From Butyrivibrio sp. (lineage in GTDB: Bacteria; Bacillota; Clostridia; Lachnospirales; Lachnospiraceae), in the NCBI GenBank assembly GCA_024692165.1, contig JAILMY010000204.1, forward strand, positions 1-37,292: DNA of 37,292 nucleotides, in the 5' to 3' direction. This document shows positions 10,116 through 29,064 of this stretch, in pieces (the stretch's first letter is position 1; each line of letters starts with the position of its first letter). The notes under the pieces are model-generated. The model did no database searches, was not told where the DNA came from, and was given only the letters and a program-made list of their open reading frames with translations. Made by a program: the position numbers and the translations under genes.

Positions 10116-10910
10116 TTAGCAGGCTACACTAAGGGCGCAGCTTCTTGGAATCACGTAAGGGTCTCGGGTCTCGGGATCTGCGATGATCGAGCACTCCAGC
10201 CCATAAATTTCGCGCATAAGATCAGTAGTAATGATTTCTCTAGGGGAGCCCTCAGCCACGAGCTTCCCTTTTTTCATGGCAAAAATGTGGTCTGCGTATC
10301 TGATTGAAAGGTTTATGTCGTGAAGTATGGCCACGATAGTAGTCTTTTTTTCCCTATTGAGCTTCTCCAGACAGTCCAGGATCTCGACCTGATAGGCGAT
10401 GTCCAGATATGTTGTAGGCTCGTCCAGAAGGAGAATGTCTGTATCCTGAGCAAGAACCAGCGCAATCCACACTCTCTGGCGCTGACCTCCGGATAAAGAA
10501 TCCACTGGCTTATCCGCCAAGTCCAGAATTCCCATGGCCTCCATGGCATCTGAAATAGCCTTGTAATCTGCTTTTGTCAGCTGTCCCAGAAAGTTCTGAT
10601 AAGGAAAGCGTCCTCTGGATACAAGATCAGCCACTGTAATACCGGATGGCACCAGAGGAGACTGAGGCAGCAGGCCTATCTGCTTTGCCAGGCAGAGGGT
10701 GGGAATCTCATAAATTGATTTTCCGTCCAGAAGCACGTTTCCACTCTTTGGTTTAAGGAGCCTTGCAAAGCTCTTTAGAAGGGTGGACTTTCCACAGCCG
10801 TTGGGTCCTATGATCACACAGAATTTTCCCTCGGGAACAGTAATACTTAGATTTTCCAATATGAGTCTGTCCTCGTATCCAACTGACATATTAGTGCCGG
10901 CAAAGTTCAT
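10116..10910 (-). CDS. Iron-siderophore ABC transporter ATPase (FecE/FepC-like)
   Basis: The 264-residue product has Walker A GPNGCGKST (33-41), Q-loop LLPQSPLVPSG, signature LSGGQRQRVWIA, Walker B DILLLDEPTTYLDI and the H-loop Asp-His pair LHDINLSIRYADH. YLDIAYQVEIL after Walker B is typical of the FecE/FepC branch that powers ferric-siderophore, heme or cobalamin importers. The start ATG overlaps the stop of the upstream permease (ATGA). It is the last gene of the four-gene operon. It should act on the inner membrane face with the two FecCD permeases. Confidence 0.92.
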   Translation of the reverse strand: MNFAGTNMSVGYEDRLILENLSITVPEGKFCVIIGPNGCGKSTLLKSFARLLKPKSGNVLLDGKSIYEIPTLCLAKQIGLLPQSPLVPSGITVADLVSRGRFPYQNFLGQLTKADYKAISDAMEAMGILDLADKPVDSLSGGQRQRVWIALVLAQDTDILLLDEPTTYLDIAYQVEILDCLEKLNREKKTTIVAILHDINLSIRYADHIFAMKKGKLVAEGSPREIITTDLMREIYGLECSIIADPETRDPYVIPRSCALSVAC

Positions 10911-11944
10911 ATTTTTTCTCCCTTCTTGTTAAGGCTTAGTAAAAGAAACAGTAAATACGGGGCGCCCAGGATTCCGGTGATCACGCCCACGGGATATTTG
11001 GTGCTGAAAAGATTTTTTGACGTCAGCTCTGCTGCGTAAACAAGGATTGTTCCAATGAGACCGGACAAAAACATTGAATTCTTACCGTTTTCGGTGAGCC
11101 TTGTGGCGATGGGGCCTGACAGGAACGCGATTGATGCAATTGGTCCAGTGGCCGCCGTAGCTACAGATGACAGCACCAGAGCGCAAATCATACTGCAAAG
11201 TCTTATGGCATTCAGGGAAACTCCCAGGGTTGAAGCATATTCATCCCCCAGCTGCATCATGCGCAGATGCCTGTTCAAAATAAGTAGTAGTCCTCCGGCG
11301 AGAATCGTTGTGGTCACCACCGCAGGAATATCGCTGTTTGTAACGGAGTTAAGGCTTCCTCTGAGCCAGCGCAGGGCTGTTCCCACGTCGTACTCGGAGC
11401 CCACCAGCAGCATCCAGGAAATAAGGGCGTTAAGTACCGCCTGCATTCCAATGCCTATGAGGATCATCCGCATTCCGAAGGCATGTCCTTTTCCTGACAA
11501 GAGGAAGATCAGCAAAGTTATCACCAGTCCGGCTACCACGGAAAATACTGAGGCCAGCGGACCACTGATCCCGACTATAAGTATGCAAAACACTGCTGCG
11601 GCTGAAGAACCGGCTGTGACTCCGATGATATCAGGGCTCGCCAGCGGATTTCTTAAAAGGCTCTGAAAAGTGTAGCCGGCAATTCCAAAGGAAAAGCCTG
11701 CAAGCCCGCCCACAACGAGCTTTGGAAGCCTTAGGGTCTTTATGGTATAAGCTGCCCCGGAAGATCCTTTGCTGCCAAGGGCTGAAAGGACTTCTGCAAT
11801 GGAATAGTTGGTATTTCCAAGGGTCATCATAAGTACCCCCAAAGCGCATACCATAAAAAGAGCTCCCAGTCCGCAGATCAGATTGTGCCGACGGGATTTT
11901 CTGTATATATCTTGAATTAGTTGCTGTGATTCGTTGTTTCTCAT
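10907..11944 (-). CDS. FecCD-family ABC transporter permease (second permease)
   Basis: The 345-residue product is a ten-pass-type membrane protein of the FecCD/BtuC family. Visible signatures include TIKTLRLPKLVVGGLAGFSFGIAGYTFQSLLRNPLASPDIIGVTAGSSAA near the N-terminus and GDEYASTLGVSLNAIRL, the cytoplasmic coupling segment, in the second half. It should pair with the other FecCD protein to form the channel. Its ATG overlaps the stop of the upstream permease by four bases and its stop overlaps the ATPase start, so translation is coupled along the operon. Confidence 0.92.
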   Translation of the reverse strand: MRNNESQQLIQDIYRKSRRHNLICGLGALFMVCALGVLMMTLGNTNYSIAEVLSALGSKGSSGAAYTIKTLRLPKLVVGGLAGFSFGIAGYTFQSLLRNPLASPDIIGVTAGSSAAAVFCILIVGISGPLASVFSVVAGLVITLLIFLLSGKGHAFGMRMILIGIGMQAVLNALISWMLLVGSEYDVGTALRWLRGSLNSVTNSDIPAVVTTTILAGGLLLILNRHLRMMQLGDEYASTLGVSLNAIRLCSMICALVLSSVATAATGPIASIAFLSGPIATRLTENGKNSMFLSGLIGTILVYAAELTSKNLFSTKYPVGVITGILGAPYLLFLLLSLNKKGEKI

Positions 11945-12957
11945 ATACTCTTAGCTTTCGTTCTCCACACGATCCAGATGAATATTGGTGCGCCCAATAT
12001 GGCGGTGATTATTCCTACTTCAAGTTCCCCGGGGCGTCCAAGTACGCGCCCTATCACATCTGATATGACCAAAAGTCCGGCGCCGCCAATGGCTGAAAAA
12101 GGAATGATGAGCCGCATGTCGTTATCAAGGAGTTGCCTGATAAGATGAGGGATCATAAGTCCCACAAAGCCAACAGGACCTGCAATCGCAGTGACAACTG
12201 CGCAGAGCAGCACTCCTGCAAAGGCTGAGAAGGCTCTGATAATGCCCACCTTTACTCCCAGGGATACAGCCATTTCGTCCCCCAGAGCCATGGCATTCAG
12301 CGGCGATGCGCAGGCAAAAGACATTGCGATTCCCACAAGCACAAAGGGCAAAACAAGCTTTATGTCGTCCCAGGTGGCTCCTCCGATGCTTCCAACCTGC
12401 CAGAATCTGAATTCCTTCATGACCTGAGAATCCGGAAGCATTATGGTGTTAACAAGAGCGCCAAGGGCAGTGCTTACTGCAGCTCCTGACAAAGCCAGTT
12501 TCAGGGAGCTTGCGCCACCAAATCCGCAGGATGCAATTCCGTAGACGAAGAGCGCTGTCAGTACCGCTCCGGTAAAAGAAAGAGCGATCAGCCCAAGGCC
12601 TGAAGTGATATTGAGGTACGCGATACCAATCACCACAAGAAGGGATGCTCCTGTATTTACCCCCAGGATACTGGGATCTGCCACGGGATTTCTTGTTATG
12701 GACTGCATCAAAGCACCGGAAACCCCAAGCGCAGAACCGGCCAGGACACCAAAAACGGTTCTTGGTATTCTGGCACCTACAACTGCTGCTTCAAAGGAGT
12801 CGGCATTTGGATCAAACAGGTAGCCCATCACATCACTAAGGGGGATGCTCTTACTGCCGTAAGCCACTGAGCAAAGAATTCCCAGCATGACAAAAGCGAT
12901 CTCTAAAGCTAGAAATATTGAAATGTGTAATTTACTGAATCTTTTCTGCTGCATCAT
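11941..12957 (-). CDS. FecCD-family ABC transporter permease (first permease)
   Basis: The 338-residue membrane protein has the same family landmarks as its neighbour: ARIPRTVFGVLAGSALGVSGALMQSITRNPVADPSILGVNTGASL, coupling segment GDEMAVSLGVKVGIIRA, and the closing IGRVLGRPGELEVGIITAILGAPIFIWIV. Together with the second permease it forms the import channel for an iron chelate. The gene overlaps the 3' end of the binding-protein gene by 26 bases and the next permease by 4. The pair of different FecCD proteins, rather than one homodimer, is the usual arrangement in Gram-positive siderophore systems. Confidence 0.92.
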   Translation of the reverse strand: MMQQKRFSKLHISIFLALEIAFVMLGILCSVAYGSKSIPLSDVMGYLFDPNADSFEAAVVGARIPRTVFGVLAGSALGVSGALMQSITRNPVADPSILGVNTGASLLVVIGIAYLNITSGLGLIALSFTGAVLTALFVYGIASCGFGGASSLKLALSGAAVSTALGALVNTIMLPDSQVMKEFRFWQVGSIGGATWDDIKLVLPFVLVGIAMSFACASPLNAMALGDEMAVSLGVKVGIIRAFSAFAGVLLCAVVTAIAGPVGFVGLMIPHLIRQLLDNDMRLIIPFSAIGGAGLLVISDVIGRVLGRPGELEVGIITAILGAPIFIWIVWRTKAKSI

Positions 12958-14035
12958 TAAGTGCCTTTAAATAATCGTCGATGCAATAAGGAATAGAAAG
13001 AATTGTTGGTGTGCTTGCTGCTGCAAGGGTCTCATTTGAATCAAGAAGTACAAATGCGCCGTTGTTTACAGCAGGAACCTTTGAGAATCTTCCATCCTTC
13101 TGCATTGCTTCAATAAGTGATTCCTGTCCGTAGGTAATGATGATATCCACATCTGTAAGGACATCTGCGTTTTCTGCGCTGACAGTTACATAGAAAGCAT
13201 CTTCATCATCGATAAGGCTTGTAACGCTGTCAGGAGTTAAAAGGCCAAGGTCTCCGAGGAATGCGGATCTTGGGTCATTATTTGTATAGATGTAGAAAGA
13301 ACCAAGGTCGTCTTCGCTGAGCCAGAAGAAACCAACTTTTTTGCCCTCAAGATCAGGATAAGCGCTGAGTTTTTCTGAGATAAGCTTTTCTGTTTCAGCC
13401 ACAAGCTCTTTTCCCTCAGCTTCAAGTCCAAGAGCTGCTGCGTCGTTCACGGTCTCCTCCTGCCAGGTTGTAGCCCATGCCACAGTAGGATAAGCAACTA
13501 CCGGCGCGATCTCGCTGAGTCTGTCGTAGTCTTCCTGGCTAAGGCCTGAGTAAGCCGCAAGGATGACGTCAGGATTGCAGTCCGCAATGGCCTCATAATC
13601 CCATCCGTCTGTGTCGCTGAAAACGTTGGGCTCTGTCACACCGAGATCCTCGAATGCTTTTGCAGTCCAGGCAAGAAGGCCGTTCTCATCTCTTGGGCCA
13701 AAGTTTGCTTCTGAAATTCCGGCAGGAACAATGCCAAGAGCCAGAGGTACATCAGGGTTACCCCATGCGATGGCAACGATGTTCTCAGGCTTTTTTTCAA
13801 TGACAACTTCACCAAGAGCGTGCTTGATTGTCATAGGGAAAGCTGTGTTCTCCACTGTTCCCTGGCTGATTTCCTGAGTGTTTTCACTTTCTGCAGAATT
13901 AACAGCGCTTTCTGCTTCAGTGCTTTCTGCTTCAGTGGTCTCTGATACTGTTGAATCTGCAGTGGCTGCGCCGCATGCAGAAATACTGGTTACTAAAATA
14001 GTTGATAATACGAGTGTTAAAAGTTTCTTTTTCAT
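12932..14035 (-). CDS. Iron-siderophore ABC transporter substrate-binding lipoprotein
   Basis: The start at 14035 follows GAGGTG and gives MKKKLLTLVLSTILVTSISAC, a lipoprotein signal with Cys21; the longer frame lacks a ribosome binding site. An acidic Ser/Glu-rich tether follows (24-60). The body is a FecB/FatB-type periplasmic-binding fold: VENTAFPMTIKHALGEVVIEKKPENIVAIAWGNPDVPLALG, then DGWDYEAIADCNPDVILAAYSGL and VAETEKLISEKL. It should capture a ferric siderophore or related chelate outside the membrane and hand it to the FecCD pair. It is the first gene of the operon. The exact ligand is not readable. Confidence 0.9.
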   Translation of the reverse strand: MKKKLLTLVLSTILVTSISACGAATADSTVSETTEAESTEAESAVNSAESENTQEISQGTVENTAFPMTIKHALGEVVIEKKPENIVAIAWGNPDVPLALGIVPAGISEANFGPRDENGLLAWTAKAFEDLGVTEPNVFSDTDGWDYEAIADCNPDVILAAYSGLSQEDYDRLSEIAPVVAYPTVAWATTWQEETVNDAAALGLEAEGKELVAETEKLISEKLSAYPDLEGKKVGFFWLSEDDLGSFYIYTNNDPRSAFLGDLGLLTPDSVTSLIDDEDAFYVTVSAENADVLTDVDIIITYGQESLIEAMQKDGRFSKVPAVNNGAFVLLDSNETLAAASTPTILSIPYCIDDYLKALNDAAEKIQ

Positions 14036-14052
14036 TAAATTCACCTCAATAT

Positions 14053-14100
14053 TTTTGTTAGCAATAACTAACGTCAGATTGTTGCATATGGCTAACAAAA
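14053..14100. promoter_or_regulatory. Operator region of the iron-uptake operon (two half-conserved palindromes)
   Basis: TTTTGTTAGC (14053-14062) and GCTAACAAAA (14091-14100) form a perfect 10-bp inverted repeat. The inner site TTAGCAATAACTAA (14058-14071) is itself TTAG-N6-CTAA, and TTGCATATGGCTAA (14082-14095) is a weaker copy. TTAG-N6-CTAA resembles the inverted repeats bound by DtxR/IdeR-type metal repressors; that link is inference. The sites overlap the spacer and flank the -10 of the minus-strand promoter, as expected for repression. Confidence 0.65.
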
Positions 14101-17394: not shown

Positions 17395-17424
17395 TTGGAA
17401 ATAATGGACGGATAATTGTATAGT
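17395..17424 (+). promoter_or_regulatory. Possible promoter of the small Cys-rich ORF transcript
   Basis: TTGGAA (17395-17400), 18 bp, TATAGT (17419-17424). It would give an A-rich leader of about 120 bases before the ORF at 17554. Confidence 0.4.
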
Positions 17425-17553
17425 TATCTCATCAGGAAGCTGAAGCAAACAAAGCAAAGGCATTCCATTAGTTAAAACTTAGCTTAGCAGTAACAAACAA
17501 ATTTAGCCGACAAGAAACAAGATGAAATTTCACAGGAAAGGACGGGACGAACA

Positions 17554-17658
17554 ATGAAGAACATCATGATCTGTAGAAGCAATTGTATGTGTAGCCGAAT
17601 GGAAGAGAATCGGGCAACTAATATGGCAGGTGCGATGTGTTGTTGTTCAAACCGTTAA
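17554..17658 (+). CDS. Six-cysteine small ORF, 34 residues (leader peptide or peptide precursor)
   Basis: This ORF starts at an ATG with AGGAAAGGACGGG upstream. It encodes 34 residues with Cys at 7, 11, 13, 29, 30 and 31. Three consecutive TGT codons stand just before the end (AMCCCSNR), and two hairpins, the second a terminator, follow within 100 bases. That layout is what a cysteine-sensing attenuator would show: ribosome stalling at the Cys codons would alter hairpin choice. No cysteine gene follows, so the element may be orphaned. Alternatively it is a Cys-rich peptide substrate for the radical SAM enzyme 1.5 kb downstream. Neither reading is proven. Confidence 0.5.
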   Translation: MKNIMICRSNCMCSRMEENRATNMAGAMCCCSNR

Positions 17659-17683
17659 CCTAAAGACAACCTTTCGCAAAAAC

Positions 17684-17759
17684 CTCCGGAGATCACCGGA
17701 GTGAAAACAAAAACGTATGCCAAATGCCCGGGAGACTCATTCGTTCCCCGGGCATTTTT
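17684..17759 (+). terminator. Tandem hairpins ending in a strong terminator
   Basis: Hairpin 1 is CTCCGG-agatca-CCGGAG (17684-17701). Hairpin 2 is AAATGCCCGGG (17722-17732) pairing perfectly with CCCGGGCATTT (17747-17757), with a T-run. CTCC of hairpin 1 could also pair with GGAG at the foot of hairpin 2 (17730-17733), so an alternative fold is possible. Confidence 0.8.
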
Positions 17760-17850
17760 CTACCCTAAAACGGGTACATAACATTTTTACCGGTTCCATT
17801 AGCCGGAACAATCGGTCTCATTAGCCAAATCATAAATTACCCCCTACCTA

Positions 17851-17870
17851 GGAGGCCCGCCTGGGCCTCC
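17851..17870. other. GC-rich perfect hairpin
   Basis: GGAGGCCC-gcct-GGGCCTCC is an eight-bp perfect stem with a tetraloop and no T-run on either strand. It sits about 40 bases before the 13-codon ORF. Function unknown; a transcript-end stabiliser or regulatory fold is possible. Confidence 0.5.
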
Positions 17871-17912
17871 GCAACTAAAAAACTTAAAAAAGAAATATAG
17901 GAGACAAAAGTC

Positions 17913-17954
17913 ATGGAAAAAGAATTTGAGAAAAAAGAGGCGTCTGCGGCTTGA
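17913..17954 (+). CDS. Very short ORF, 13 residues (possible leader peptide)
   Basis: ATAGGAGACAAAAGTC precedes an ATG encoding MEKEFEKKEASAA and a stop; a terminator hairpin follows at 17994. The first five residues (MEKEF) match the start of the radical SAM protein at 19166, and the DNA differs there at only a single base over the first 15. It may be a leader peptide or the remnant of a duplicated 5' end. A very basic frame also overlaps it (from about 17927 to 18040) but lacks a ribosome binding site. Confidence 0.3.
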   Translation: MEKEFEKKEASAA

Positions 17955-17993
17955 ACTTAAAGCAATGAGGAGGAGATATATACTAAACGTAGT

Positions 17994-18035
17994 ACGGAGA
18001 GCTAATCCAAGAACATGGACGCTCTCCGTTTTCTT
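17994..18035 (+). terminator. Rho-independent terminator
   Basis: ACGGAGAGC (17994-18002) pairs perfectly with GCTCTCCGT (18021-18029), with TTTC following. A second small hairpin, GTAGG-t-AGC with GCT-CCTAC, lies at about 18041-18064. Confidence 0.7.
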
Positions 18036-18160
18036 ATGAATGTAGGTAGCTTGACAGCTCCTACATGAAGGTGAAATTATCATAACATTGTTTCACTGAA
18101 ATATCTATAAAATAGAAATAAAATTATCACATTAACGTTGTACTCAACTGAATTGTATAA

Positions 18161-18412
18161 AGAGACGGCAGGCAGCTAAGGGGCAATATCCTGGGGCTGA
18201 ACTTTGAACTTCTGGATGAAAACGGCGAGATTATTGCGGTTATATCCCAGAAGCTGATATCAATCCACGATAAATATTGCATTGATATCTACAAAACTGA
18301 GTACGAGCATATCGTAATTGCGATCCTTGTTACTCTGCAGCACATGATAAAAGACCGTGAGGCGAGAAATTCTGCTCCTTCATCAAGTTCATCATCATCT
18401 TCAGCGTCATGA
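18161..18412 (+). pseudogene. Remnant of a LURP-one-related (Tubby-like, YxjI-type) protein
   Basis: Between a stop at 18158 and a TGA at 18410 the frame has no ATG, GTG or TTG, yet encodes about 83 residues that look like a real protein end. GNILGLNFELLDENGEIIAV, ISQKLISIHDKYCIDIY and EHIVIAILVTLQHMI follow the closing strands and helix of the LURP-one/Tubby-like fold, then a Ser-rich tail. The usual family length is about 160-200 residues, so the N-terminal half is gone. A terminator follows directly. The assignment rests on pattern recognition; the absence of a start and promoter argues that it is dead. Confidence 0.6.
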
Positions 18413-18445
18413 GGCGCAACAAATTTTAAGGAAATTATATAGATC

Positions 18446-18497
18446 TCCGGACAGGGCATGAATACTGGATTCATACGGCTTTGTCCGGAAATTTTTT
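18446..18497 (+). terminator. Strong rho-independent terminator
   Basis: TCCGGACA (18446-18453) pairs with TGTCCGGA, and an inner ATGAAT/ATTCAT stem stacks inside. A run of seven T follows. It isolates the DUF3990 promoter from upstream transcription. Confidence 0.85.
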
Positions 18498-18502
18498 TAA
18501 TA

Positions 18503-18516
18503 TTAGAAATTGCTAA
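18503..18516. promoter_or_regulatory. TTAG-N6-CTAA operator shared with the iron operon
   Basis: TTAGAAATTGCTAA. Its reverse complement, with one flanking base, reads GTTAGCAATTTCTAA, matching GTTAGCAATAACTAA at 14057-14071 in 13 of 15 positions. It lies eight bases upstream of the DUF3990 promoter -35. Confidence 0.6.
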
Positions 18517-18524
18517 CAATTTAA

Positions 18525-18552
18525 TTGCATTTAATCTAAAATGTGCTATAAT
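18525..18552 (+). promoter_or_regulatory. Promoter of the DUF3990-radical SAM cassette
   Basis: TTGCAT (18525-18530), 16 bp, consensus TATAAT (18547-18552) preceded by TGTGC, giving a partly extended -10. An alternative CTAACA (18513-18518) with TAAAAT (18537-18542) overlaps the operator. Confidence 0.6.
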
Positions 18553-18589
18553 CGAATTGAAATCGATAAATGTTTTGTATGGTGAATAT

Positions 18590-19141
18590 ATGATCAAAGT
18601 ATTTCATGCAGGATACGAGGAGATAACTGCGCCCGACATCCATAGAGGGCGCAAAAATGCTGATCTTGGCCAGGGTTTCTATCTGTCGGATAACTATGAA
18701 TTCGCCAGTCGCTGGGTCAGGGAAAAAAAGGGCGCTGACATTATCGTAAATTCCTACGAGTTGGATGAGAGCGGCCTTAATATCAAGCGCTTTGACAGGG
18801 ATGCGGAGTGGTTTCGCTATGTCTTTTCCAACAGAAGAAGCATGCCGGATGCGCTTAAAGACGTCGATGTTATTATCGGCCCCATCGCCAACGACACGAT
18901 CTATAACACCATGGGAATCATGACAAGCGGTTTTCTGACTGATGAGGAGGCCCTAAAGCTTTTGTGCGTCGGACCCGATTACAGTCAGATCGTGTTAAAA
19001 TCCCAGAAGGCGGCTGACCATCTGCATTTCGTATCATCGGAGGTCATTTCCGGGGACGTTATTGCAGCAAACAAGAAGATTGTCGCCGACGAAGAGGATA
19101 AATATCTTCAGCTTTTTGCTGAAACAATGGAAAGTTTTTAA
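18590..19141 (+). CDS. DUF3990-family protein (ADP-ribosyltransferase-like fold)
   Basis: The ATG at 18590 gives 183 residues; a longer in-frame start at 18458 would run through the terminator and promoter and is rejected. The N-terminal motif FHAGYEEITAPDIHRGRKNADLGQGFYLS is the DUF3990 hallmark. His6 and Tyr31 fit the His and Tyr positions of the ADP-ribosyltransferase H-Y-E arrangement. VNSYELDES, EWFRYVFSNRR and VDVIIGPIANDTIY follow in family order. The C-terminal helix ends AETMESF. Whether it modifies protein, nucleic acid or a small molecule is unknown. It lies 24 bases upstream of the radical SAM gene, so the two are co-transcribed. Confidence 0.8.
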   Translation: MIKVFHAGYEEITAPDIHRGRKNADLGQGFYLSDNYEFASRWVREKKGADIIVNSYELDESGLNIKRFDRDAEWFRYVFSNRRSMPDALKDVDVIIGPIANDTIYNTMGIMTSGFLTDEEALKLLCVGPDYSQIVLKSQKAADHLHFVSSEVISGDVIAANKKIVADEEDKYLQLFAETMESF

Positions 19142-19165
19142 AACAAAACAAAGGAATAATTTGAT

Positions 19166-20254
19166 ATGGAAAAAGAGTTTGACATTCAGGAGTATATGAC
19201 GAAAGGCGTGGAGCGAGTTGTGACAGATGCTGTCAGGGCTACGCTGAAGAATCCCAAGGAGAGCGCATACATGGCAAAGTTTGCTCTTGCCAGCAAAGCA
19301 GCATCCAGGAAGAGAGCACAACTTGAGGAGCAGGGCGAGCATGTGCCGCCATTCCTTATCGCCAGCATTACCAGCAGTTGTAATCTGCACTGCGCAGGCT
19401 GCTATTCAAGATGCAACAGCGCAACAGAGGATTCAGAGCCTGTTGACCAGCTTACTGACGATGATTGGTCCAAGGTCTTTAATGAGGCCGATGATCTGGG
19501 AGTTAGCTTTATCCTTCTTGCAGGCGGAGAGCCACTCCTTCGCAGAGGAGTTATCGAAGCTGCGGGGAAAAAGCCTTCTATTCTTTTCCCAATCTTTACA
19601 AACGGAACATTCATGACTGAGAAGTACTTCGATGAGTTCGACCGCCACAGAAACCTCATACCCATTATGAGTATCGAGGGCGAAAAGGAGGCCACAGACC
19701 ACCGCCGCGGCGATGGTGTTTACGACAAGCTGGTTTCAAACATGGATGAGTTAAAGAGCAAAGGTATTATTTTTGGCTCTTCAGTCACCGTTACAACTGA
19801 GAATATCAAAGAAGTTTCTTCTGAGAGTTTTATAAATATGTTGTCCGAGAAAGGCTGCAAAGCAGTGATCTTTGTGGAGTTCGTGCCGGTTTCAGAGGAT
19901 TCCGAGCACCTGGCTCCGGATGATGACGACAGAGAATATCTGAAGGCTGAGATCATGAGGCTTAGACAGGAGCATCCAGAGATGGTCTTTGTTTCTTTCC
20001 CCGGAGATGAAAAGAGTTCCGGCGGATGTATTGCTGCAGGCAGAGGATTTTTCCACATCAATTCTCACGGAGGAGCTGAGCCTTGCCCATTTTCTCCATA
20101 TTCAGATATAAATGTAAAAGAGACATCTCTCAGAGATGCCATGAAATCCAAGCTTTTCATGGATCTTCAGAATGAAGGCGTTTTGCTTGATGACCACAAG
20201 GGCGGCTGCGTTCTTTATCAGAAGAGAGAGATGGTTAAGGAGCTGTTGGCGTAA
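19166..20254 (+). CDS. Radical SAM enzyme with SPASM-like C-terminal cysteines
   Basis: The 362-residue product has CNLHCAGC at residues 72-79, the CX3CX2C that binds the SAM-cleaving 4Fe-4S cluster, and the LLAGGEPLLRRG glycine motif. After the barrel, SGGCIAAGRGFFHINSHGGAEPCPFSPYSD and a late KGGCVLYQ supply Cys residues in the layout of a SPASM/twitch domain, which carries auxiliary clusters in peptide-modifying enzymes. Residues 1-60 form a helical N-terminal extension rich in Ala and Lys that is not part of the barrel. AAAGGAA precedes the ATG. The substrate is unknown; the neighbours are a DUF3990 protein and a nitroreductase. Confidence 0.85.
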   Translation: MEKEFDIQEYMTKGVERVVTDAVRATLKNPKESAYMAKFALASKAASRKRAQLEEQGEHVPPFLIASITSSCNLHCAGCYSRCNSATEDSEPVDQLTDDDWSKVFNEADDLGVSFILLAGGEPLLRRGVIEAAGKKPSILFPIFTNGTFMTEKYFDEFDRHRNLIPIMSIEGEKEATDHRRGDGVYDKLVSNMDELKSKGIIFGSSVTVTTENIKEVSSESFINMLSEKGCKAVIFVEFVPVSEDSEHLAPDDDDREYLKAEIMRLRQEHPEMVFVSFPGDEKSSGGCIAAGRGFFHINSHGGAEPCPFSPYSDINVKETSLRDAMKSKLFMDLQNEGVLLDDHKGGCVLYQKREMVKELLA

Positions 20255-20304: not shown

Positions 20305-21120
20305 ATGAGTGAATTTTTGGAACTGGTAAAAAGCAGAAGAAGTGTGAGAACTTTTGACGGACAGGCGCTTGACAATACTGTAGTTGAGGATCTTAAGTCT
20401 TTTGCACAGAGTATTGTTAATCCATATGGGATTCCTGTGAGATTTGAATTCCTTGATGCCGATGAGCACAAGCTTTCAAGCCCTGTGCTGGCAGGAGAGA
20501 AATTGTATGTCTCAGCTGTTGTGGCAAAGGGAGAGCATGCGGAAGAGGCCTATGGATATGCCTTTGAAGCTCTTTTGATGCATGCTCATGAGATGGGCCT
20601 TGGAACCGTCTGGATTGGCGGAACAATGCCAAGGGATAAATTCGAGAATGCTACAGGACTTGCAGATGGCGAGGTTATGCCTTGCGTGAGTCCTCTTGGC
20701 AAAGAAGCAAAGAAGATGTCCGTGAAGGAAGCCCTGATGCGCAAAGGCGTTAAGGCTGACAGCCGTTTTGATTTTGAGGAGCTCTTTTTTGTCGGAGATT
20801 TCGGAACAGCTATGACCCCTGGAAAAGCCATGGAGGCAGGACTTCGCGACGCACTTGAGAGCGTTCGCCTTGCTCCATCTGCAGTAAACAAGCAGCCTTG
20901 GCGCGTTGTGATTGGTGACAGAGTTGCCCACTTTTACGAGAAGCACGACAAGGGTTACATCACACCTGACTACGATCTTCAGAAGATTGATATCGGAATC
21001 GCGATGTACCACTTTGAGCAGGAACTGCTGGCAGAAGGCAGAACTCCTAAGTGTGAAATCAGTGATCCTGGGATTTTGGTGCCAGCCGACGTGGACTACG
21101 TAGCAAGCTTCAGGTGGTAA
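20305..21120 (+). CDS. Nitroreductase-family FMN oxidoreductase (TM1586-like)
   Basis: The 271-residue product opens EFLELVKSRRSVRTFDG, the nitroreductase FMN-binding Arg motif. It has AYGYAFEALLMHAHEMGLGTVWIGG in the middle and, in the second half, LRDALESVRLAPSAVNKQPWRVVIG, which repeats the SxNxQPW FMN site. The combined two-lobe length is that of the TM1586-type nitroreductase family, which may fold as a pseudo-dimer in one chain. It should transfer electrons from NAD(P)H. TTTAGGAGG precedes the ATG. It starts 50 bases after the radical SAM gene without a terminator between, so it is likely the third gene of the cassette. Confidence 0.85.
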   Translation: MSEFLELVKSRRSVRTFDGQALDNTVVEDLKSFAQSIVNPYGIPVRFEFLDADEHKLSSPVLAGEKLYVSAVVAKGEHAEEAYGYAFEALLMHAHEMGLGTVWIGGTMPRDKFENATGLADGEVMPCVSPLGKEAKKMSVKEALMRKGVKADSRFDFEELFFVGDFGTAMTPGKAMEAGLRDALESVRLAPSAVNKQPWRVVIGDRVAHFYEKHDKGYITPDYDLQKIDIGIAMYHFEQELLAEGRTPKCEISDPGILVPADVDYVASFRW

Positions 21121-21222: not shown

Positions 21223-21249
21223 GACATTTTGGCAGGGCGAGATTATACT
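21221..21249 (+). promoter_or_regulatory. Promoter of the TetR gene
   Basis: Consensus TTGACA (21221-21226), 17 bp, TATACT (21244-21249). It is one of the best promoters in the window. Confidence 0.8.
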
Positions 21250-21271
21250 GACTATAAATTCGAATTTAGTC
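21250..21271. promoter_or_regulatory. TetR operator 1 (GACTA-N12-TAGTC)
   Basis: GACTA (21250-21254) and TAGTC (21267-21271) are perfect arms around 12 bp whose core AATTCGAATT is itself palindromic. The site starts one base after the -10, so binding would block initiation. The same 22-bp architecture recurs at 21948-21969. Confidence 0.75.
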
Positions 21272-21290
21272 AAAAAGGATGTGATGAGAA

Positions 21291-21881
21291 TTGCCGAAGT
21301 CATACTCTGATCAGGAAAGAGAATATATCGTTCAGCGCCTTAAGGAAGAAGCGGCGAAATGCCTAGCCCAGTACGGCGTGCGACGCACAACAGTGGATGA
21401 GCTGGTTAAGCGTGTTGGAATCCCCAAGGGCACGTTCTATCTCTTTTACAAGTCCAAGGAATTGTTGCTGTTTGAGGTGATCCAGGACCAGCATGAAGCT
21501 ATCAACAATGAACTTGGCGCCGCCCTTTCGGCTATCTCCAAGACGAAGCTGTCGGCAGAGACTTTGACGGATCTGGTTTTTCAATTTTTTAAGAAGACTG
21601 AGGAAATGCCCATTTTAAGACTTCTTGACACCGATGAAGTTGAGCTTCTGGTGCGCAAGCTCCCACGGGAAGTGGTGGAAGCGCACTTCCAGGATGACAC
21701 CGACACAATCGGGCAGATGCTGTCTATGTTCCCCATCAAGAAGGACTTGGATGTGAATACCGTCAGCGCTGCTTTCCACGCAGTTTACTTCGCAACGCTG
21801 CACAAGGCCGACATCGGAGAGAATTACGACGAAGCCCTCCGCTTCCTTATTTACGGCATTGTGAAGCAGATGATGAAATGA
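21291..21881 (+). CDS. TetR/AcrR-family transcriptional regulator
   Basis: The start is a TTG at 21291 with AAGGA 12 bases upstream; the nearby GTG/ATG at 21281-21284 is in another frame and stops after eight codons. The 196-residue product has the TetR HTH at about 20-60: AAKCLAQYGVRRTTVDELVKRVGIPKGTFYLFYKSKELLLFEV. The remainder is an all-helical ligand and dimer domain. It likely represses its own gene through operator 1 and the ABC operon through operator 2, released by an unknown small molecule. Regulators of this kind next to ABC exporters usually respond to toxic compounds; that is inference here. Confidence 0.88.
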   Translation: MPKSYSDQEREYIVQRLKEEAAKCLAQYGVRRTTVDELVKRVGIPKGTFYLFYKSKELLLFEVIQDQHEAINNELGAALSAISKTKLSAETLTDLVFQFFKKTEEMPILRLLDTDEVELLVRKLPREVVEAHFQDDTDTIGQMLSMFPIKKDLDVNTVSAAFHAVYFATLHKADIGENYDEALRFLIYGIVKQMMK

Positions 21882-24445: not shown

Positions 24446-24763
24446 TCAAAGCGCTGCATCCAGTAACTTTGCGAGAGCGTCAGGTGACATTGCACCCATT
24501 CCGCTGTTAACAACTTCGCCGTTCTTGAAAACGAGGAAGCTAGGGATTGACATGATGTTGTACTTAGCAGCAATAGCGCTCTCCTCATCGGAATTGATCT
24601 TGCCTACCTTAGCCTTGCCTTCGTAAGTCTCAGCCAGCTTCTCAACAACCGGCATCATCATCTTGCAAGGGCCGCACCAGTCTGCGTAGAAATCTACAAG
24701 TACAGGTACATCACTCTTTAAAACTTCAGTTTCAAAATTTTCCTGTGTGAATCTATATTCCAT
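24446..24763 (-). CDS. trxA: Thioredoxin
   Basis: The 105-residue product has the WCGPC active site (Cys30 and Cys33), the buried Asp in VDFYADWC and the cis-Pro loop MSIPSFLVFKNGE. Length and order are those of a normal thioredoxin, which reduces protein disulfides in the cytosol using thioredoxin reductase. GGAGG precedes the ATG on the minus strand. It is monocistronic, with its own promoter at 24835-24807 and terminator at 24360. No reductase gene is in the window. It may serve the peroxidase encoded at 28.5 kb, since Cys-type peroxidases of this family often use thioredoxin; that link is inference. Confidence 0.95.
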   Translation of the reverse strand: MEYRFTQENFETEVLKSDVPVLVDFYADWCGPCKMMMPVVEKLAETYEGKAKVGKINSDEESAIAAKYNIMSIPSFLVFKNGEVVNSGMGAMSPDALAKLLDAAL

Positions 24764-24806: not shown

Positions 24807-24835
24807 ATTATGGCACACATCAATTAAATTGTCAA
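24807..24835 (-). promoter_or_regulatory. Promoter of trxA
   Basis: On the minus strand TTGACA (24835-24830), 17 bp, CATAAT (24812-24807). The -35 lies in the centre of the palindrome at 24821-24846. Confidence 0.75.
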
Positions 24836-24846
24836 CAATCTAATTG
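24821..24846. promoter_or_regulatory. 26-bp palindrome between trxA and the cyclase gene
   Basis: CAATTAAATTGT-CA-ACAATCTAATTG has 12-base arms with a single mismatch. It overlaps the trxA -35 and lies upstream of the divergent cyclase gene. The core ATTGT-N2-ACAATCTAATT recurs at 999-1016. Confidence 0.65.
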
Positions 24847-24895
24847 TAAATAATTTATAAATAATATTATGTACATATGGAGGAGGTCAGATTCA

Positions 24896-25489
24896 ATGAA
24901 AATCTACGATATTTCCCAGGAAGTCTTTGGATGCAAGGTTTTTCCCGGTGATCCCAGCCCCAAAAGTGAGAGGACTCTTAAAATAAGTGACGGTGCGATT
25001 TGCAATCTGACCGTCTTTAGCATGTGCGCTCACAACGGAACCCACGTGGATGCGCCATATCACTTTTACGACGACGGTAAGACCATCGATCAGGTGGATC
25101 TGGATAAGTTCGTTGGCTATGCCTATGTGGCTGAGCACTCCGGTGATATTACTGCAGCAGATGCAAAAGAAATTCTGAAGGCAGCAGCCGATGCAGATCA
25201 GCGCGCTAAGGAAAGAATACTGATCAAGGGCAACGCCACCATGACCAAGGAAGCGGCAGAAGTTTTCGCGGCCGCAGGAATCAAGCTTTACGGAAATGAA
25301 TCCCAGACTGTGGGCCCCGAGGATGCACCAAGGGAAGTGCATCTTGTCATGCTTGGAGCTCAGATCGTGCTTTTAGAGGGCATCAGGCTTGCGGCTGTTC
25401 CTGAAGGGGTGTATCTGCTTAATGCTGCGCCAATCAATCTTGGCGGCTGCGACGGAGCTCCCTGCAGAGCAATACTGATGGAGATGTGA
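24896..25489 (+). CDS. Cyclase-family metal hydrolase (kynurenine formamidase-like)
   Basis: The ATG at 24896 follows GGAGGAGGT; the in-frame ATG at 24869 does not. The 197-residue product has the family motif HNGTHVDAPYHF (His46, His50, Asp52, His56), which binds Mn or Zn, near the usual N-terminal position, and ends with NLGGCDGAPCRAILMEM. Members hydrolyse N-formylkynurenine, isatin or other cyclic amides. Tryptophan-catabolic genes are not nearby, so the substrate is open. It is divergent from trxA and shares the palindrome at 24821-24846. The 52-codon ORF follows 55 bases downstream. Confidence 0.85.
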   Translation: MKIYDISQEVFGCKVFPGDPSPKSERTLKISDGAICNLTVFSMCAHNGTHVDAPYHFYDDGKTIDQVDLDKFVGYAYVAEHSGDITAADAKEILKAAADADQRAKERILIKGNATMTKEAAEVFAAAGIKLYGNESQTVGPEDAPREVHLVMLGAQIVLLEGIRLAAVPEGVYLLNAAPINLGGCDGAPCRAILMEM

Positions 25490-28438: not shown

Positions 28439-28501
28439 TTGCTTTTTAGGCAAGGATGGTTTATGATATTATCATAAATTGCACACAATCATATAGTGCA
28501 A
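28439..28501 (+). promoter_or_regulatory. Promoter and palindromic operator of the glutathione peroxidase gene
   Basis: TTGCTT (28439-28444), 17 bp, TATGAT (28462-28467). The -10 lies inside TTTATGATATTATCATAAA (28460-28478), nine-base arms around one base. The size and AT-rich dyad symmetry recall PerR/Fur-family boxes, but the bases do not match the consensus closely. A second dyad TTGCAC/GTGCAA spans 28479-28501. Confidence 0.6.
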
Positions 28502-28524
28502 AATCATATTAGGAGGAAACAATA

Positions 28525-29064
28525 ATGATTTATGATTACAAGGTTACTACAGGAACTGGAGAGGAACTGAGCCTTTCCGAGTTTAAAGGTAAAGTGATTC
28601 TCGTGGTTAATACTGCTACAGGCTGTGGCTTCACACCTCAGTACAAGCCACTCGAGGATTTATATGAAAACTATCATGACAAGGGATTAGAGATACTTGA
28701 TATTCCTTGTAATCAGTTTGGAGGACAGGCTCCGGGTTCAGACGAAGAGATACATGAGTTCTGTACTCTGAATTACAACACCACATTTCCTCAGATGAAG
28801 AAGTCTGACGTAAATGGAGAGAATGAGCTTCCTCTTTACACTTACCTCAAGTCTCAGAAGGGATTCGAAGGTTTCCAGGAGCATCAGTACAAGGAGCTTC
28901 TTGAAAAGATGTTCTCAGAAGCAGATCCTGATTGGGCTAAAAAGCCTGATATCAAATGGAACTTTACTAAATTTGTAATCGACAGAGAAGGTAATGTTGT
29001 TGCACGTTTTGAGCCTACAGCAGATGTTGCGGATGTAGAAGCTTGCATTAAATCTTTGCTGTAA
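28525..29064 (+). CDS. Glutathione peroxidase-family peroxidase (cysteine type)
   Basis: The 179-residue product has VNTATGCGFTPQY with Cys34 where animal enzymes use selenocysteine; the codon is TGT, so no recoding is needed. IPCNQFGGQAPGS supplies the Gln and IKWNFTKFVIDREG supplies Trp-Asn of the catalytic tetrad. Bacterial members usually reduce peroxides with thioredoxin rather than glutathione, and trxA is 4 kb away. Cys80 may act as the resolving Cys; this is inference. AGGAGG precedes the ATG. It is monocistronic, with a palindrome over its -10 suggesting peroxide or metal control. Confidence 0.92.
   Translation: MIYDYKVTTGTGEELSLSEFKGKVILVVNTATGCGFTPQYKPLEDLYENYHDKGLEILDIPCNQFGGQAPGSDEEIHEFCTLNYNTTFPQMKKSDVNGENELPLYTYLKSQKGFEGFQEHQYKELLEKMFSEADPDWAKKPDIKWNFTKFVIDREGNVVARFEPTADVADVEACIKSLL

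Follow-up and report, generated by a model that had tools for sequence, protein, structure and literature searches.

A recurring promoter element upstream of a DUF3990-radical SAM-nitroreductase cassette in Butyrivibrio, with a candidate link to peroxide and thiol stress

We analyzed a 37,292-nucleotide stretch of DNA from Butyrivibrio sp. (assembly GCA_024692165.1, contig JAILMY010000204.1; hereafter the window) that carries three adjacent genes encoding a DUF3990 protein, a radical SAM protein and a nitroreductase. A preliminary description had named these genes and had proposed that one metal-responsive regulator controls both this cassette and an iron-uptake operon of the window. Pfam analysis agreed with the names, returning PF13151 for DUF3990 (E value, 5.8e-37), PF04055 for the radical SAM protein (4.7e-12) and PF14512 for the nitroreductase, which is of the TM1586 type (9.4e-33). 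The source genome (G000; 3.14 Mb) was compared with a family set of 397 genomes and a genus set of 79, of which 47 are of high quality. The cassette, predicted to be a single operon, and its promoter are laid out as follows.

18503 to 18536, plus strand: redox element, with the core ATTG-CTAA-CAAT-TTA-ATTGCATTTAAT at 18509-18535
18525 to 18552, plus strand: predicted promoter, with -35 TTGCAT at 18525-18530, 16 bases, and -10 TATAAT at 18547-18552 (by eye)
18590 to 19141, plus strand: DUF3990 protein, 183 amino acids, ADP-ribosyltransferase-superfamily-like by predicted fold
19166 to 20254, plus strand: radical SAM protein, 362 amino acids, with CX3CX2C plus further invariant cysteines
20305 to 21120, plus strand: TM1586-type nitroreductase, 271 amino acids

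The predicted promoter also has a TG at 18544-18545, ahead of the -10 box.

The promoter element and its distribution

Upstream regions and neighbor order were examined in 109 loci of relatives. These comprised 60 radical SAM loci of the family set (the best orthologs outside the source genome, out of 172 family genomes matching at an E value of 1e-30), 40 of the 46 radical SAM matches of the genus set and nine named DUF3990 loci, six of which are called Butyrivibrio. An element, ATTG-N4-CAAT-N3-ATTGCAATAAAT, recurs in them before DUF3990, radical SAM and nitroreductase genes and lies over the -35 box; it was first noted upstream of DUF3990 and radical SAM genes as ATTG-N4-CAAT-N-TAATTGCAATAAAT, then a -10 box. 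The -10 box is invariant in 21 aligned promoters, which had been selected with TATAAT in the pattern.

Two models of the element were used: R1, trained on DUF3990, radical SAM and nitroreductase promoters only, and R2, a wider model run over 40 genomes, for which matches with E above about 0.007 were mostly left aside. The cassette copy scored 36.4 with a matrix made without the window's sites, and R2, which had it as a training site, matched 18504-18535 with an E value of 9.4e-7. Two further copies were found in the window, as listed here with the genes around them.

24446 to 24763, minus strand: thioredoxin
24822 to 24855, plus strand: second copy of the redox element, between the thioredoxin gene and a cyclase-family gene
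24869 to 25489, plus strand: cyclase-family gene
28472 to 28505, plus strand: weak third copy, before a glutathione peroxidase gene
28525 to 29064, plus strand: glutathione peroxidase

The second copy scored 36.9 with the window left out and was matched by R1, which had not been trained on it, with an E value of 1.8e-6; R2 matched 24823-24855, one of its training sites, at 8.2e-6. The two best R2 sites of the source genome both lie within the window. The third copy scored 11.5, which is below the 12.7 obtained at an unrelated place (minus strand, 983). A third R2 site in the source genome (C97:9752; E value, 0.015) precedes another glutathione peroxidase gene, and each of the two glutathione peroxidase genes of this genome carries a weak copy of the element.

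When the 79 genus genomes were searched with the pattern CAATNNAATTG-N16-22-TATAAT, 58 strand hits were obtained, versus 5 for the reversed control (a total summed by eye, as was the reversed-control total for the exact iron palindrome given below). Thirty loci were listed from this pattern, and 21 of the sites precede radical SAM (12), DUF3990 (5) or nitroreductase (4) genes; eight of the 21 are DUF3990 or nitroreductase promoters that were new to the pattern, the remainder having been known when it was drawn up. R1 matches were present in 49 of the 79 genus genomes and included promoters on which it had not been trained, namely, those of thioredoxin, glutathione peroxidase, thioredoxin-reductase-like and flavodoxin genes. 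R2 added further sites at the same kinds of genes. Sites scoring at least 20 were counted over loci L201-L276 and L316-L365, with L238, L273, L345 and L346 assigned separately: 62 of the 71 distinct motif-found sites lie at those redox genes or at the cassette genes (two of them at an alpha/beta hydrolase gene, then flavodoxin). Alignment A2 contains 32 of the 71 as rows, and without them the count is 33 of 39. A single element lies between back-to-back DUF3990 and thioredoxin genes at three sites, and in one genome (G401) the radical SAM and nitroreductase genes each have their own element. A methionine sulfoxide reductase gene had the element once, with a low score of 14.5. None of 483 shuffled upstream regions reached a score of 12, and no site of at least 20 was found in 1.02 Mb of reversed sequence. 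Three points are thus properties of the sequences themselves: the element exists, it recurs at separate loci ahead of each of the three genes, and it also precedes genes for thioredoxin, thioredoxin-reductase-like protein, glutathione peroxidase and flavodoxin.

The cassette is not a fixed unit. Conservation of its gene order in relatives, which the preliminary description had looked to, was not found: the order of the window occurred in none of the 109 fetched loci, many of which stop at contig ends, so that an absent neighbor is not always genuine. This would fit three genes that are mere neighbors by chance and have no common function. We consider that very unlikely, however, because pairs of the genes recur and the same element precedes each gene at separate loci. 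A radical SAM gene with the nitroreductase gene immediately downstream was seen in 4 of the 60 family loci and 6 of the 40 genus loci. DUF3990 is next to the radical SAM gene in 2 of these 40 genus loci, and DUF3990 and nitroreductase genes are adjacent in three of nine DUF3990 loci, twice in the order DUF3990-nitroreductase and once in the reverse order.

The iron operator and the dyad upstream of the cassette

The resemblance on which the proposal of shared control was based involves the following features.

10116 to 14098, minus strand: FecCD-type iron ABC transporter operon with periplasmic binding protein
14057 to 14072, no strand assigned: iron operator GTTAGCAATAACTAAC, within the FecCD-type operon promoter
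18502 to 18517, no strand assigned: dyad ATTAGAAATTGCTAAC, iron-box-like, with two mismatches to GTTAGC-N4-GCTAAC, overlapping the 5' half of the redox element

The sequences and coordinates given for this resemblance proved right. The reverse strand of 18503-18517 (GTTAGCAATTTCTAA) and positions 14057-14071 (GTTAGCAATAACTAA) are identical at 13 of 15 bases, and the extended form TTAG-WW-ATTGCTAACAA is identical at 15 of 17 bases between the two sites when compared by eye.

The exact sequence GTTAGC-N4-GCTAAC occurs six times in the source genome, versus none for the reversed pattern. Boxes were found before or beside genes for a flavodoxin, FeoA (PF04023), a FeoB-like (FeoB_N) fragment with a divergent DUF3793 gene, an ABC protein whose membrane and ATPase portions are fused, and a protein without a Pfam match, then an FMN-binding/ferric-reductase-like gene; the sixth is a member of a pair before a small-RNA candidate. 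In the family set the exact palindrome is present in 139 of 397 genomes, in up to 12 copies, and the reversed pattern in 22. Judged from these sequences, GTTAGC-N4-GCTAAC is a genuine operator before iron genes, common to the FecCD operon and other iron genes. A DtxR-like protein is a reasonable candidate for the regulator of the transporter operator. Besides the source genome's own, seven loci with DtxR-like genes were available, and in five of them (L114, L117, L135, L138 and L363) a box with at most two mismatches lies at most 300 bases upstream of the gene; six of the seven had been fetched for containing a box. Both Fe_dep_repress domains are present in the DtxR-like proteins of the two relatives checked. 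The source genome's own DtxR-like gene has no box within its 3-kb locus. The arms TTAG/CTAA, the iron-uptake targets and the DtxR-like genes beside boxes in several loci resemble the DtxR/IdeR iron box, for which an excerpt of a published study gives the consensus TTAGGTTAGCCTAACCTAA (PMC7762939). The system here differs in the form GTTAGC-N4-GCTAAC and in several pairs in the source genome (24 and 40 bases apart), and the cassette has a single degenerate match. No operator GTTAGC-N4-GCTAAC in Lachnospiraceae was named in the portions of the literature consulted.

Other features adjoin the iron boxes. A candidate small RNA that may be linked with iron starvation sits directly behind an iron-box pair in two genera (L010:7345-7456, minus strand, on G000 contig C55; L135:2124-2194, on G257 contig C17), with 83.6% identity over 73 bases, a common AAGAAATCTCCTACCT stretch that is anti-Shine-Dalgarno-like, and a terminator-like hairpin in which the stem differences read as paired changes. 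Rfam gave no match at either place; it did identify a Clostridiales-1 RNA (RF01699, 108.8 bits) at L010:12219-12387, minus strand. Iron boxes also adjoin a gene for a Fur-like protein of some 80 residues, whose match to Fur is confined to the profile's first half (L014:2600-2839, minus strand, on G000 contig C235; L156:2035-2298); in the source genome this gene is next to DUF3793 as well.

Simple motif counts did not set the dyad apart. The bare TTAG-N6-CTAA is expected 0.42 times per window, and two or more copies arose in 12 of 100 shuffles. Genome-wide, TTAG-N6-CTAAC gave 25 strand hits versus 33 for the reversed control, and GTTAGC-N4-GCTAAC with at most two mismatches, the level of the 18502 site, was found at 39 places in the source genome versus 40 in the control. 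A weight matrix was more discriminating. Built from 11 source-genome sites, 10 of them outside the window, it gave 21.4 at 14057 (itself one of the 11), 16.2 at 18502, 10.6 at the next best place in the window and 6.7 at a poor second match within the transporter region (14081-14096). The weakest of the training sites scored 15.4 when left out, so that 16.2 is within their range. None of 2,000 shuffles of 18441-18589 reached 16.2, and in 0.89 Mb of reversed sequence from the genus no place did so. Because this score was unmatched in both controls, the resemblance of the 18502 site to the iron operator exceeds bare chance, yet the site overlaps a second, conserved element.

Conservation of the iron operator was assessed in a promoter set in which each protein match starts within 10 residues, with at least 45% identity and at least 100 bases upstream; duplicates were merged by their last 60 bases, and motif-fetched loci were included. 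Scores of at least 15.4 were found in 2 of 17 DUF3990 promoters and in none of the 101 radical SAM or 25 nitroreductase promoters. The two DUF3990 promoters are that of the window and that of L153, whose paired boxes adjoin a divergent DUF3793 gene. Among the 60 family loci, a single one (L069) has the iron core TTAGC-N4-GCTAA, with at most one mismatch, in the 350 bases ahead of the radical SAM gene, and there the core and a redox-like element overlap. Of the claim that one metal-responsive regulator serves both operons, the iron operator before the FecCD transporter stands, and shared control of the cassette is not supported as a general feature. The cassette's sharing of this operator is weakly supported, and we set it aside as the main control because the operator is not conserved.

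Inspection of the overlap indicates how the dyad is built. The redox element at 18503-18536 starts TTAGAAATTGCTAACAAT, and the dyad spans its 5' flank plus 9 of the 12 bases of the first ATTG-N4-CAAT (18509-18520). The GCTAAC half results from an N4 of CTAA. Of 82 element copies, 4 have this N4, and the window's alone has TTAG at the right distance as well. With the right half fixed and left flanks drawn at the composition of the other copies, the probability of reaching 16.2 is 0.0054.

It is conceivable that a DtxR-like iron regulator also binds 18502-18517 in this strain, in which case the cassette would answer both iron limitation and peroxide. The matrix score and its controls speak for such dual control, as does the low probability of a random left flank. 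So do the surroundings of some relatives' genes: four of the nine DUF3990 loci (L153, L154, L156 and L157) have iron-box pairs at most 2 kb from DUF3990, in L170, L171 and L195 iron boxes are found in the vicinity of radical SAM genes, and a site scoring 14.4 stands immediately before a radical SAM gene without the redox element in L187. In L154, L156 and L157 the pairs are downstream of DUF3990, and the DUF3990 upstream regions there are without the redox element. Against these points, an iron site of at least 15.4 occurs at 1 of 82 element copies (the window's), no radical SAM or nitroreductase promoter reaches that score, the two-mismatch motif does not outnumber its control, the 18502 site departs from the operator at two conserved bases and it is upstream of the -35 box, an unusual position for a repressor site. 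We regard dual control as unlikely. The iron dyad is at most a second, strain-specific input; an added input of this kind in this strain is possible because the score at 18502 is unusual, being reached at a single one of the element copies.

Candidate regulator of the element

The center of the element, AACAATTTAATTGCA, resembles the OhrR box. Excerpts of a published account give the boxes TACAATTNAATTGTA and GCAACTNAATTGC (PMC6034001), and positions 18515-18529, over the -35 box, match TACAATTNAATTGTA at 12 of 14 bases. Two MarR_2 proteins of the source genome, plus a DtxR-type hit, exceed the Pfam cutoff. One of the two (C168:6477; gene at C168:6363-6800) is OhrR-like, matching the NCBIfam OhrR model with an E value of 5.1e-54 and 181.8 bits, below the cutoff of 200. 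Its best solved match is 1z91 (6e-40), named organic hydroperoxide resistance regulator, which we take to be the Bacillus subtilis OhrR. C17, Y31 and Y42, presumably the reactive N-terminal cysteine of OhrR and its two tyrosine partners, are kept in all 30 loci fetched. The genes under the element include those for the peroxide- and thiol-defense proteins glutathione peroxidase, thioredoxin and thioredoxin-reductase-like protein. OhrR is therefore the likely regulator on the basis of box, protein and gene content.

We propose that the cassette is probably part of a Butyrivibrio redox-stress regulon in which an OhrR-type repressor releases the three genes upon organic-peroxide or thiol stress. 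A dimeric repressor, most likely the OhrR of the genus, would bind the tandem element at 18503-18536, which covers the -35 box upstream of DUF3990, the bound tandem being ATTG-N4-CAAT, 3 bases, and ATTG-N4-AAAT, with CAATTTAATTG in the middle. Organic hydroperoxides or thiol stress would oxidize the reactive cysteine, OhrR would be released, and the three cassette genes would be switched on along with those for thioredoxin and glutathione peroxidase. OhrR proteins sense hydroperoxides of unsaturated fatty acids, which Butyrivibrio hydrogenates. The proposed regulon is like those of OhrR in Bacillus, Agrobacterium and Streptomyces in its CAATT-N-AATTG center, its MarR-family sensor with the OhrR cysteine position and its peroxide- and thiol-defense genes; it differs in having an extended tandem element with a 15-base period and many scattered targets and in adding DUF3990 and the radical SAM enzyme. 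Among the open papers found on OhrR in Butyrivibrio, on OhrR together with radical SAM and nitroreductase proteins, on clostridial OhrR regulons with thioredoxin and on DUF3990, titles and abstract openings mention no such unit.

Several observations weigh against this proposal. Even in a promoter set enriched by motif-fetched loci, scores of at least 20 were reached by only 24 of 101 promoters of radical SAM genes, 10 of 17 of DUF3990, 6 of 25 of nitroreductase and 3 of 8 of glutathione peroxidase genes, so that control by the element is far from universal. R1 found no match at an E value of 0.01 in 30 of the 79 genomes of the genus, and 9 of the 71 motif-found sites lie elsewhere. The presence of OhrR does not discriminate, since an OhrR-like protein is found in nearly every genome (74 of 79, and all 47 of high quality). 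The ohrR promoters match the element weakly (best score, 9.4; median, about 3; 30 of 30 scored), and because they stay weak across all 30, our confidence in the proposal is slightly lowered.

Another regulator could read the element: a different MarR protein, the TetR protein encoded next to the cassette or a Rex- or Spx-like redox factor. We hold this to be possible though doubtful. In its favor, besides the weak ohrR promoters, the cassette has the TetR gene downstream of it, and in L185 a relative (89%) is found about 2 kb from the radical SAM gene. The center of the element and its gene content nevertheless fit OhrR, and the two other proteins inspected were set aside. The second MarR_2 protein (C115:4422), which is not OhrR-like, has no good element at its locus, the best match there being 12 of 15 and inside its own coding region. 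The TetR gene is preceded by a near-palindrome unlike the redox element, as listed below.

21249 to 21272: near-palindrome TGACTATAAATTCGAATTTAGTCA with the perfect core AAATTCGAATTT, just before the TetR gene and possibly a TetR self-operator
21291 to 21881: TetR gene, following the cassette

Upstream of the cassette, the region 17400-18450 has few long reading frames; at 17554-17658 a 34-codon frame with six cysteines is followed by terminator-like hairpins (by eye). Rfam found nothing at gathering score in the window.

Cassette products and implications for Butyrivibrio

The DUF3990 model has a predicted local distance difference test score of 88.4. Its best Foldseek hits, RES and ParT proteins, are weak (E values, 5.2e-4 and 9.6e-3; template modeling [TM] scores, about 0.4 to 0.5). 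DUF3990 belongs to the Pfam ADP-ribosyltransferase (ART) clan in the part of a published listing that was consulted (PMC7955679). In an alignment that omits L158 and L192, H6, Y31 and Q133 are invariant in 14 of 14 proteins and may occupy the positions of the ART H-Y-E/Q triad. The predicted fold is weakly similar to that of RES-domain and ParT/MbcT ART-like proteins (Foldseek E values, 5e-4 to 7e-2), with TM scores of about 0.4 to 0.5 and an identity of about 8%.

In the radical SAM protein, C72, C76 and C79 of the CX3CX2C motif and C288, C307 and C348 are kept in 23 of 23 aligned sequences. The model (predicted local distance difference test score, 81) is nearest in fold to the peptide-modifying SPASM enzymes SkfB, SuiB and anSME. 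The protein shares with SPASM/twitch enzymes (these three, and AhbD/NirJ by profile) the radical SAM barrel, the CX3CX2C motif and further conserved cysteines, but it falls below the cutoff of every NCBIfam model among the best 25 of 58.

These analyses point to peroxide and thiol stress more than to iron as the setting of three functionally uncharacterized genes, and they name an operator and a candidate regulator. If a peroxide switch does govern a radical SAM enzyme and an ART-like protein in these oxygen-sensitive rumen bacteria, oxidative stress and radical chemistry would be connected in a new way. A bolder picture, which we offer as speculation and consider rather improbable, is that strict anaerobes in the rumen have a broad OhrR-type regulon for peroxides and thiols, with a so far uncharacterized pathway through an ART-like protein, a novel radical SAM enzyme and a flavin nitroreductase, perhaps repairing or rewiring oxidized flavin, NAD or protein, and that in the present strain the promoter described here is also read by an iron repressor via the overlapping half-site. 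If this were true, that half-site would tie the supply of iron-sulfur enzymes to peroxide stress.

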